Under the pieces are notes generated by a model that saw only the letters and a list, made by a program, of their open reading frames with translations, made no database searches and was not told where the DNA came from. 64,000 bases of DNA. Source: an uncultured Sphingomonadaceae bacterium (GTDB lineage Bacteria; Pseudomonadota; Alphaproteobacteria; Sphingomonadales; Sphingomonadaceae). Made by a program: the position numbers and the translations under genes. Where the stretch lies: assembly GCA_947493955.1 (NCBI GenBank), contig CANLSQ010000001.1:1798001-1862000 (forward strand). Direction: 5' to 3'. Shown one piece after another: positions 14,972 to 17,316 of the stretch (position 1 is its first letter; each line of letters starts with the position of its first letter).

Positions 14972-15118
14972 TCTACCAGCTCCTTAAAACTTATTTTCGC
15001 GGCGAACAGACACAGCAAATCATCTAACGAATCACTGCTCTAGCTAATTGTCCGAATAGGCCTGATCGAAATTAATCAGTCAATTAAATTCCATAGCCAA
15101 AATTTTGCTCTTTCCTAC

Positions 15119-15139
15119 AAATAACCAAATAGGTTATTT
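15119..15139. promoter_or_regulatory. 21-bp palindrome upstream of endolysin gene
   Basis: Arms AAATAACC and GGTTATTT pair perfectly around a 5-bp AAATA spacer. It lies 35 bp upstream of the endolysin start, in the expected promoter region of the lysis pair, and is the only clear dyad in the 202-bp gap 14972-15173. It could be an operator controlling lysis gene expression; the binding protein is unknown. Confidence 0.45.
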
Positions 15140-15173
15140 CTTGCACTCAACCTCTGGAAAGAAAGATGCTGCC

Positions 15174-15713
15174 ATGAATATCGACACATTGATCGACGAC
15201 GTCATTGCCATAGAAGGCGATTATTCCAATCATCCCGCTGACCGCGGGGGCCCCACCCGCTGGGGCGTCACTGAAGCGGTCGCGCGCAGCCACGGTTATG
15301 CTGGTGACATGCGGCATTTTCCCTACGACGAAGCCGTCGCCATATATAAACGCAGATACTGGCTGCGTCCGTCATTTGACAGAGTCAGCGCACTGGCCCC
15401 GCGACTGGCCGGGGAACTGTTCGATACCGGCATTAATATGGGGCCCGAGATTGCAGCCCGTTTCCTGCAGCGGGCGCTTAATGCGCTAAACCGCAACGGC
15501 CAGGATTTTGCCGATATCGCAACCGACGGCCAAATCGGTCCGAGGACAATCGGCGCCCTACAGAAATTCCTGGCGAAGCGCGCCGATGGCGGCGAGGCGG
15601 TTCTATTGAAAGCCGTCGAGGCTTTACAGGGCGCACGCTACATAAAGCTGGCTGAACAGCGCCCGGCCAATGAAGCATTTCTCTATGGCTGGCTCTCCCA
15701 CCGCATAGGTTGA
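15174..15713 (+). CDS. GH108-type endolysin (peptidoglycan N-acetylmuramidase)
   Basis: A 179-residue protein with the start at 15174 (MNIDTLID), since upstream codons encode nothing family-like. It opens with the glycosyl hydrolase 108 motif: catalytic Glu14 in EGDYSNHPADRGGPTRWGVT, where the family pattern is EGGYSN-PxDxGGxTxxGIT. The C-terminal part (ATDGQIGPRTIGALQKFL) is the family's peptidoglycan-binding extension. Proteins of this type are phage or prophage endolysins; Rhodobacter gene transfer agent particles are also released by one. A three-helix holin gene follows after 44 bp. There are no capsid or tail genes in the window, so this is a stand-alone lysis pair. Confidence 0.88.
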   Translation: MNIDTLIDDVIAIEGDYSNHPADRGGPTRWGVTEAVARSHGYAGDMRHFPYDEAVAIYKRRYWLRPSFDRVSALAPRLAGELFDTGINMGPEIAARFLQRALNALNRNGQDFADIATDGQIGPRTIGALQKFLAKRADGGEAVLLKAVEALQGARYIKLAEQRPANEAFLYGWLSHRIG

Positions 15714-15757
15714 AAACCCGGCCGGCCTCCCCTTCTGCAATATAAGGAATCAGAACC

Positions 15758-16171
15758 ATGTCTTTACTCTCGACCCTCATCGGTCCCATTTCAAAAATTA
15801 TCGACAAGATCATTCCCGACAAAGGTGCCCGTGATCGCGCAATGCTGGAGCTGCTCAAACTTGAAGGTAGCCAGGAAGTGGAACAGCTTCGTATTCAGAT
15901 ATCCGCGATACTGGCTGAGGCCAGATCTCTCGACCCTTGGACCAGTCGCGCGCGGCCGAGCTTTCTCTACGTCATGTATATATTGCTGCTCTGGTCATTA
16001 CCCATGGGTTTGATCGCGGCAATCCGGCCACAAGCAGCTCATGATATCGCCAATGGCATGAATGCTTATCTTGCCGGTATTCCAGAGCCTCTATACGCGC
16101 TATTTGGCACTGGTTATCTCGGCTACACTGTAGCACGGCAATGGGGGAAAATCCGGGGTGTCGAGAAATAG
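15758..16171 (+). CDS. holin of the 3TM superfamily
   Basis: A 137-residue protein with an amphipathic start (LIGPISKIIDKIIPDKGARDRA), a charged helix with AEARSLDPWTSRARPSFLYVMY spanning about residues 52-74, and membrane helices around 69-88 and 105-125. The DPWTSRARP motif before the first helix is the hallmark of the Holin_3TMs (DUF3154-type) family. It would permeabilise the inner membrane and let the GH108 endolysin encoded just upstream reach the cell wall. The pairing endolysin-holin supports both calls. Confidence 0.82.
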   Translation: MSLLSTLIGPISKIIDKIIPDKGARDRAMLELLKLEGSQEVEQLRIQISAILAEARSLDPWTSRARPSFLYVMYILLLWSLPMGLIAAIRPQAAHDIANGMNAYLAGIPEPLYALFGTGYLGYTVARQWGKIRGVEK

Positions 16172-16225: not shown

Positions 16226-16365
16226 TCTGTGCAATTAACTATTTGAATGCCCAAAAAAGCGACAATTTCAGCCATTTTCTAGGATATCGCACAAATAGGC
16301 TTGCCATGCCCGTGCGTTTGCAGATAGAGGGGAAAGTCTAGTTCATTCCAAAGGGGATATTTTAA

Positions 16366-16674
16366 ATGTCTAACGAAACAAGTTTCCGCAAAATGCTGGC
16401 AGTAGCTGGTGGTCTTGCTCTTGCAGTTCCTGCTCTTTCCGCATGTGCTGAGCAAGCTGAAGATGCTGCTGCAGCTGCAGAATGTGCCGCTGAATGTGCT
16501 GCATGTGCCGCTGAAGAAGCTGCATGTGCCGCTGGCTGTGCTGCTGAAGAAGCTGGTTGTGCTGCTGCATGTGCCGCTGGTTGTGCTGCTGACGCTGCTG
16601 GTTGTGCTGCTGAAGCCGCTGCATGTGCCGCTGGTGATGCTGCGTGTGCCGCTGCATGTGCCGCTACTGAGTAA
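16366..16674 (+). CDS. Cys/Ala-repeat lipoprotein, unknown function
   Basis: A 102-residue protein. Residues 1-27 are a lipoprotein signal peptide ending in the lipobox LSAC, so the mature protein should be lipid-anchored in the envelope. The mature chain is almost only Ala, Cys, Glu, Gly and Asp, with 13 Cys in all. Within the repeat region neighbouring Cys are spaced by 3, 4 or 7 residues, mostly in 4+7 alternation (11-residue periodicity), the spacing that puts them on one face of an alpha helix. The 11-residue unit looks like CAAGCAAEEAG. A good Shine-Dalgarno sequence AAGGGGAT lies 7 bp before the ATG. Metal binding, a disulfide-linked helix bundle or an Lpp-like role are possible; none is shown. 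The His-rich neighbour gene starts 15 bp after its stop, in the same frame. Confidence 0.8.
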   Translation: MSNETSFRKMLAVAGGLALAVPALSACAEQAEDAAAAAECAAECAACAAEEAACAAGCAAEEAGCAAACAAGCAADAAGCAAEAAACAAGDAACAAACAATE

Positions 16675-16689
16675 TATCAGTACAGCGCA

Positions 16690-17316
16690 TTGGAAAATGC
16701 AATAGAAAGGCTGTTTGAGCTAACAGGCCAGATAGCTAAAGAGGGCGTCTCGCTAGTACCCAGAGTGGTACCGGCAGACGCCCCTTTCGTTCAATATGAA
16801 CATTATCCGAAGGGCGACTGTGTTGCACCCGGCAACAAGTCTCGCTGGTTCTACCATGCGCACAAGCCCGAGGAACGCGAAGAAGGCGAGCATGGCCATT
16901 TCCACATGTTTCTGCCGCTCGAGATGTTCAAAGGCGTAAACGCGCTTTACGAACCTCCCAAGAAACTTCCCAATGGCAAACCAACCCAAGGCGTCGTTCA
17001 TTTCGGCGCACTGAGTTTTGGCCTGGATGGCATGCCATTGAGCTGGTTCACAACCAACTATTGGGTCACTTACGAATATTTCATGCCCGCCGATGCCATT
17101 GCATCGCGGCTCAAGCTTTTTTCCATGAAAAAGGCTCCTGGTGATCCGCTCGTCAACGACTGGCTTACTGCCGCTGTGGAAGTTTTTCATGATCCCATCA
17201 TCGATATGCTGCACGAACGCGACAAACTGCTAGCGGAAAAGAAAGCGGAACTCGGCGACGCGGTGTTTGAAAACAAAACCGTCGAAATAATGTCTCGGAC
17301 GACATTCGACCTTTAA
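16690..17316 (+). CDS. His-rich uncharacterised protein (DUF6969-like), TTG start
   Basis: A 208-residue soluble protein with no signal peptide. Residues about 53-77 hold a dense His/Glu stretch, FYHAHKPEEREEGEHGHFHMF, of the kind that binds a metal. From memory this resembles the DUF6969 family; no function is known to me. The only plausible start is TTG at 16690, without a strong ribosome binding site. The frame is the same as that of the Cys/Ala lipoprotein gene and is closed upstream only by that gene's TAA, 15 bp earlier, so translational coupling is likely and readthrough to a fused product conceivable. Pairing with the Cys-rich lipoprotein hints at a common metal-related function, which is inference. 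Confidence 0.7.
   Translation: MENAIERLFELTGQIAKEGVSLVPRVVPADAPFVQYEHYPKGDCVAPGNKSRWFYHAHKPEEREEGEHGHFHMFLPLEMFKGVNALYEPPKKLPNGKPTQGVVHFGALSFGLDGMPLSWFTTNYWVTYEYFMPADAIASRLKLFSMKKAPGDPLVNDWLTAAVEVFHDPIIDMLHERDKLLAEKKAELGDAVFENKTVEIMSRTTFDL

Follow-up and report, generated by a model that had tools for sequence, protein, structure and literature searches.

In the 64,000-nucleotide stretch of DNA analysed here (the window), a gene for a Cys-rich lipoprotein directly precedes a gene for a protein of the Pfam family DUF6969, and elsewhere DUF6969 genes were found to have mostly Cys-rich exported proteins as neighbors. There is good support both for the pairing of the two genes and for the dedication of the pair to exported proteins rich in Cys. 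With a probability of about 0.5, the pair represents a two-gene, RiPP-like unit in which DUF6969 would mature or escort Cys-rich precursors before their export by the Sec system. In our best reading such a unit would work like the bufferin/MNIO systems, but with an unrelated protein. The locus has the following features.

16293..16360, + strand: block kept upstream of the pair (aaatag-cttgccatgcc ... gtctagttcattccaaaggggata), likely the promoter/5' leader together with the ribosome-binding site (genus alignment)
16366..16674, + strand: precursor gene, Cys/Ala-repeat lipoprotein of 102 aa (ORF translation; genus orthologues)
16366..16443, + strand: signal peptide/leader, residues 1-26, nearly frozen (genus alignment)
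16435..16446, + strand: lipobox Leu-Ser-Ala-Cys (LSAC, Cys27), putative lipid anchor (sequence)
16447..16671, + strand: hypervariable Cys/Ala/Glu/Gly core with 12 Cys, each within C-A-A (sequence)
16690..17316, + strand: DUF6969 (PF22308), 208 aa, TTG start (Pfam match; AF2 model)
16855..16905, + strand: H56-x-H58 ... E67-H68-G69-H70-F71-H72 of DUF6969, candidate metal site (67-sequence alignment)
16999..17001, + strand: invariant H104 of DUF6969 (67-sequence alignment)

The first-pass annotation had described a lipoprotein with 12 Cys at steps of 4,3,7,4,7,4,4,7,7,7,4, and exactly these steps were found in the open reading frame 16366-16674, where the Cys residues occupy positions 40-98. The reading frame and the leader are kept in 28 orthologues, and the ORF is genuine. 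Its signal peptide and lipobox bear out, at the level of sequence, the annotated Cys-rich lipoprotein of the envelope. Neither Pfam nor NCBIfam gave a match for it at E up to 1. After a gap of 15 nt from the lipoprotein stop codon begins the gene whose His cluster (HAH...HGHFH in the annotation, HAH...EHGHFH in the translation) had been noticed; it matched DUF6969 with 194.7 bits (E 1.7e-57; curated cut-off 27), and at E up to 1 this was its single match in Pfam. In 28 aligned upstream regions of the genus the block preceding the pair is kept while most other upstream sequence drifts; a scan for a sigma-70 consensus promoter upstream of the pair found no site. The pair is flanked on the 5' side by a GH108 gene and a gene-transfer-agent (GTA) holin (window positions 15105-16171), and on the 3' side by tRNA-Arg and a DUF1178 gene. 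A GTA holin lies upstream of the pair also in locus L093. Identity as a defence or phage gene was rejected, as no PADLOC or PHROG match was obtained at E up to 0.1. The annotation had taken the pair for a candidate undescribed system, and no description was found in the literature searched, where no paper names DUF6969; in the part of PMC12452194 that was covered, both 'DUF69' strings belong to DUF692.

Conservation was studied in 32 genomes of the window's genus (G000-G031). A close DUF6969 homologue was present in 28 of them, the other four being drafts of 67-97% completeness, and in all 28 loci the lipoprotein gene stood directly upstream, which upholds the annotation's view that the two genes belong together. 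Among the orthologues, leader residues 9-27 had a mean identity of 98.6% and a pN/pS of 0.021. It is this segment alone that stands out, because the value for all 31 leader codons (0.084) is no lower than that of DUF6969 (0.074, determined on a 60-codon part in 27 sequences). The signal peptides of the few YHS proteins that were compared appeared, by eye, more variable than the precursor leader. A leader motif, [MLF]LxVxGGL, is common to precursors of other Sphingomonadales and of some other Alphaproteobacteria. The cores of the genus contain from 2 to 16 Cys (four members have just 2), total precursor length ranges from 83 to 105 aa, and the composition is almost wholly Ala, Glu, Cys, Asp, Gly, Thr, Val and Gln. 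In 25 distinct genus sequences each of the 217 core Cys residues was followed by Ala-Ala.

A relative is encoded by at least 558 stretches of the GTDB contigs, and the best 80 of these were taken as a set of loci which, because the best matches were kept, is biased in favor of sequences related to the window protein. A neighboring ORF was counted as Cys-rich and secreted if it lay within 3 kb, showed a signal-like stretch, contained 5 or more Cys in 40 aa and had few bulky residues. The control consisted of 60 bins of 6.6 kb from 20 hand-picked stretches at round-number positions in 20 genomes, some of which may be of the same species as loci of the 80-locus set. By this rule 58 of the best 80 of at least 558 loci had a Cys-rich neighbor, compared to 0/60 control bins; in the same best-80 set 52 loci passed with 6 Cys required and 58 with 4 Cys, when one of the 60 control bins passed as well. 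Depending on the rule, about 19 to 22 of the best 80 of at least 558 loci were left without such a neighbor, some of them on short contigs. In terms of redundancy, the best 80 of at least 558 fell into 54 clusters at 80% identity, 32 of which had a precursor by the strict rule and 38 after the addition of ten loci judged by eye; at 60% identity there were 16 clusters, 11 with a strict precursor and 13 when the by-eye loci were included.

A draw of 398 genomes across the phylum, which is not biased towards the window, gave 20 genomes with DUF6969. Of these 20 loci, 11, 12 and 15 passed at 6, 5 and 4 Cys, respectively, L072 being scored as a miss solely because the script failed to recognize its DUF6969. 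Depending on the rule, a Cys-rich neighbor was lacking in 5 to 8 of the 20 loci, a number that rose to as many as 9 when 6 Cys were required.

The repeats of the neighbors were of several types (GCCAAEGCC, CAAGCAAC, NPCAANPCAA, CNPCAAKK, CGACGAC, CGAKCGAK, CAAKKPCAAKK). As regards the annotation's question about conserved Cys spacing at the same genomic position, the Cys stripe is kept within the genus, but other clades carry different repeats. What the otherwise differing repeats have in common is C-x-A, which points to a shared unit across precursors. In 50 Cys-rich ORFs of loci L093-L166, chosen near DUF6969 by the Cys rule and irrespective of a signal, Ala was found two positions after the Cys in 444 of 555 cases, most of the others having Pro (C-N-P); Ala made up 35% of the core residues. 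A conserved third gene was rejected, since 102 of the 105 listed nearest neighbors of L093-L166 gave 83 Pfam families, the commonest being FtsJ (12), S4 (9) and YHS and two others (3 each).

In some of the Cys-rich neighbors a further domain is present: cytochrome c of the SoxA/TsdA type, cytochrome P460 or a DSP-type phosphatase. In L140 and L163 (Thioclava and Sinirhodobacter) NPCAP repeats are fused to a DSP-type phosphatase upstream of DUF6969, as tested with Pfam in L140. A gene with an FGE-sulfatase domain sits between the Cys-rich gene and DUF6969 in L056, L057, L059 and L082 (Pfam-tested in L056 and L082). A rhodanese-like gene, recognized by eye, lies 3' of DUF6969 in L072 (G261) and L073 (G303), and L070 and L071 are likely alike. 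L072 has YeeE/YedE-like genes upstream, and a gap of 8 nt separates the end of its short NPCGP protein from DUF6969; the same kind of protein occurs in the other two g168 genomes.

Co-occurrence was followed with a profile built from 26 leaders, mostly of genes beside DUF6969, which biases the search towards finding that type. In 197 genomes of the order the profile matched 20 at E up to 0.001 and 17 at E<1e-5; the three weakest matches fall within ORFs of considerable length (234-554 aa) and seem to be unrelated. PF22308, searched with the same settings in what was taken as the same draw, was found in 20 of the 197. Strong leader and DUF6969 occurred together in 16 of the 197 genomes (Fisher P 6e-19), i.e. 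in 16 of the 17 strong-leader genomes, the exception having neither DUF6969 nor core Cys. DUF6969 without the leader was seen in four order genomes (G041, G043, G499 and G609), of which G041 has other Cys-rich neighbors. Within the family, the leader was detected at 1e-5 in 40 of 397 genomes and DUF6969 was present in 39 of these 40; the remaining one is G798, a draft of 73% completeness whose leader match is borderline and falls in a 470-aa ORF. One lineage amounts to a natural experiment in which core Cys and DUF6969 are both absent: in G586, a single case, the leader gene is kept (L203), no DUF6969 match was found, and the core has zero Cys. The genes flanking it on either side match those at L066, where the precursor and the following gene have DUF6969 between them. 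As counter-cases stand G687, in which the leader protein next to DUF6969 has just one Cys (L271), and the four genus members with 2 core Cys.

No signal peptide was seen by eye in the DUF6969 protein of the window, and this, together with its mostly Cys-rich exported neighbors, favors a role in maturation or escort over that of a His-rich metal sink. In an alignment of 67 sequences including the window protein, P40, H56, H58, G69, H70, F71, H72, H104, G114, P116, R177 and D178 were invariant, and H38, Y39, D43, E67, H68 and N123 were among the residues conserved in at least 90%. None of the invariant positions of the 67 sequences is a Cys, a point against the idea that DUF6969 itself carries out thiol exchange. 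AF2 modelled the protein with high confidence (pLDDT 94.5, pTM 0.90) and places H56, H70, H72 and H104 on three predicted strands (E52-56, E67-76 and E102-111), an arrangement that would be compatible with a site. Along the 208 residues of the model, five strands are followed by helices and one final strand, with no repeated strand-helix order. MNIO enzymes have the fold of a TIM barrel. DUF6969 gave no PF05114 match at E up to 1, and the strand order of a TIM barrel is absent from the model. Searches for fold relatives returned as best values E 1.7 (Foldseek) and E 0.13 (sequence profile) for the PDB, Z 3.9 for VIA and E 0.31 for BFVD; they name no relative, from which novelty of the fold does not follow.

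Taken as a RiPP-like unit, the pair may work in the following way. The conserved Sec signal peptide of the precursor would double as a recognition leader, and the fast-evolving array of Cys in C-A-A units behind it would form the core. The DUF6969 protein, cytosolic and probably metal-dependent by virtue of its HxH...GHFH...H set, would recognize the leader and act on the array before export, most likely by modifying the Cys side chains; otherwise it would keep the Cys residues reduced or load metal. After export and lipidation at Cys27 the product would stay in the envelope, and its array may bind a soft metal there. Metal sequestration is the likeliest end use, and the choice of metal, Cu(I) in the first place, is a guess from the likeness to bufferins. 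As to the activity of DUF6969, a maturase that chemically changes Cys is our first choice, at somewhat less than even odds. The wider proposition is put forward more tentatively: DUF6969 may be a new class of Cys-modifying, metal-dependent maturases, unrelated to MNIO and serving a large, hitherto unrecognized set of Sec-exported Cys-repeat precursors in Pseudomonadota, with the signal peptide as leader and C-x-A as substrate unit.

One enzyme family, MNIO, is known to make exported, Cys-modified metal binders (the bufferins), and a second, MNIO-unrelated partner family would, if the proposition is true, widen this class. It would also give a function to the Pfam domain DUF6969, linked to probably hundreds of Cys-repeat proteins, and the search for new Cys chemistry would gain simple units of two genes. 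Whether a signal peptide can act as a maturation leader is made testable by the frozen signal peptide.

Among the alternatives, the one that survives best, unlikely as we consider it, makes DUF6969 a dedicated cytosolic escort rather than an enzyme: it would bind the leader and the Cys array until Sec export, either keeping both reduced and unfolded or loading a metal, and the exported thiols would act unmodified. The pairing and the co-occurrence fit this explanation equally well, and the His set of DUF6969 could bind metal without catalysis. The distribution of NPC-type Cys-rich repeats also bears on it. Such repeats were found in 29 of the 398 genomes of the phylum draw, and DUF6969 accompanied them in 8 of 9 genomes outside the family f43 and in 0 of 20 inside it (taken as the same draw). 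A rule that the Cys repeat needs DUF6969 was, accordingly, not upheld. Cys repeats of such look can exist without DUF6969 in f43 at least, which counts against the two-gene unit, and unmodified Cys repeats may be exported. Most of the readable f43 proteins have Met and His in their repeats as well, and a few do not. What argues against an escort is DUF6969 itself, where strictly invariant, spaced His residues combined with Gly and Pro would resemble an active site more than a loose binder. Eight f43 loci (L310-L315, L318 and L319) encode exported proteins rich in NPC, of which several include a cytochrome c portion. Their genes adjoin multihaem cytochromes and, at some of the loci, ArsS/ArsM-like genes (by eye), and DUF6969 was seen in none of the eight neighborhoods.

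Rather improbable is an unmodified, metallothionein-like metal or redox buffer in the periplasm, with DUF6969 as an accessory metal binder that does not act directly on the lipoprotein; this comes closest to the metal sequestration or redox buffering offered by the annotation. The twelve thiols along one helix face in the genus would suit such a buffer. So would the surroundings of the nine leader proteins that were found away from DUF6969 (in the window's own genome and in G013, G017, G019, G146, G508, G544, G564 and G666; flanks of about 1.5-2 kb were read): six of the nine adjoin, by eye, a secreted YHS-like protein, and the YHS domain is often linked to metals. All nine, however, occur in genomes that possess DUF6969, and neither this co-occurrence in trans nor the frozen core of the signal peptide is explained by a simple buffer.

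The closest working likeness of the window pair is the bufferin/MNIO group. According to the part of PMC12452194 covered here, the RiPPs modified by MNIO (DUF692/PF05114) derive from precursors with a Sec signal peptide and Cys motifs, some of which are lipoproteins and some of which are fused to cytochrome c and FGE-sulfatase domains; preliminary evidence is given for the signal peptide as part of the recognition sequence. Judged by sequence and against that part of the source, the window pair shares with bufferins the small operon, the cytosolic partner and the Sec signal peptide followed by a Cys-rich core; it differs in having DUF6969 instead of MNIO and DUF2063, and in its repeats (C-A-A, NPCAAK and GCCAAE types). 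No MNIO gene was found in the window cluster, the three tested neighbors being GH108, the GTA holin and DUF1178; DUF2063 had no match in the pair and these three neighbors, and the precursor matched no bufferin family (e.g. DUF2282) among the Pfam and NCBIfam profiles. For these reasons the pair was not filed as a bufferin.

The genome of the window has a single PF05114 match, on another contig (C3), where by eye it forms a cluster of the bufferin type together with DUF2063- and DoxX-like genes. This cluster could act in trans, which would count against the two-gene unit: the genome's own MNIO would modify the precursor and DUF6969 would have a side role. L068 (G422:C4:3500-14100), which holds both systems, agrees with such a possibility. 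This locus combines the bufferin system with that of DUF6969 and has a CGAKC Cys-rich precursor, DUF6969 and DUF692/MNIO-, DUF2063- and DoxX-like genes in one cluster (genes named by eye, PF05114 confirmed). On the other hand, no PF05114 match was found in 14 of 33 chosen DUF6969 genomes, several of which have Cys-rich neighbors (G041, G054, G059, G129, G306 and G439). Dependence on MNIO was rejected on this ground, and we hold modification in trans to be quite improbable. The CGAKC repeats of L068 and L081 somewhat resemble those of the Buf_EGKCG/oxazolin proteins, which, in the portion of PMC12452194 considered, likewise have long Cys repeats of variable number behind a signal peptide but differ in their EGKCG repeats and in their association with MNIO and DUF2063. 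Among loci L054-L166, no EGKCG ORF was found in the DUF6969 neighborhoods.

The annotation had placed a helical stripe of Cys at the center of its reading. Using the mean resultant R of the Cys angles at 100 degrees per residue as a measure, the window core had R 0.88 compared to 0.24 in shuffled cores, with 0/2000 shuffles reaching the observed value. The 24 loci of the genus that have 4 Cys or more gave R 0.82-0.95, far above letter shuffles. Since every Cys of the genus cores opens a C-A-A unit, the steps are mostly 3, 4 or 7, which in itself favors a stripe. When steps were redrawn from the genus pool, the joint mean R was 0.70 versus the observed 0.889 (21 distinct sequences; 0/2000 draws); for the window sequence alone P was 0.078 against genus-pool steps and 0.231 against steps shuffled in order. 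Outside the genus, a stripe was found in one of 30 scored cores of other leader types beside DUF6969 (L093, R 0.79, P 0.012). The stripe is, then, kept in the genus beyond the effect of the step set, yet it is not a feature of the whole system, and as a defining feature it was rejected, being missing in 29 of the 30 cores. The annotation's stripe stands for the genus and falls as the center of the system.

A structural role as a helical bundle of the Lpp/OprI kind, with disulfides along the stripe as locks, is very improbable. Lpp and OprI are small Ala-rich helical lipoproteins with a hydrophobic heptad. The window lipoprotein is likewise small and Ala-rich and has a lipobox; for its helix there is a low-confidence prediction, AF2 having given one long helix with pLDDT 67.2 and pTM 0.36. 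It differs from them in having a Cys stripe instead of the heptad, as well as a partner gene, and no hydrophobic heptad core was found in the genus cores, from which Leu and Ile are absent. Besides the stripe values of the genus, the low-confidence helix was what spoke for the bundle, which was rejected; a stripe in one of 30 other cores means that such a bundle is not the common denominator, and Cys numbers of 2 to 16 within one genus do not suit it either. The copper storage proteins Csp1 and Csp3 are four-helix bundles lined with Cys. They are comparable to the window lipoprotein in having many Cys along helices, predicted at low confidence for the lipoprotein, and in being exported in some cases. 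The lipoprotein, which gave 0 matches to Pfam families at E up to 1, differs from them in its predicted single helix of low confidence, its variable Cys number and its dedicated partner gene.

Neutral drift of a low-complexity repeat without a selected function, to which the rapid change in length and Cys number might point, is scarcely credible in view of the C-A-A unit at 217/217 Cys, the frozen leader and the pairing across classes, the genus data having already suggested selection on the leader and on the C-A-A unit.

Two minor observations concern individual DUF6969 records. At L084 (G054:C52) the motif of the DUF6969 copy is altered (HALRTGKHAHFH) and the copy may be non-functional; two other copies are present in its genome. 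L096 and L097, recorded as Sphingomonas jejuensis and S. ginsenosidimutans, carry one and the same precursor and have identical DUF6969 match values, and one of the two may be mislabelled or contaminated.
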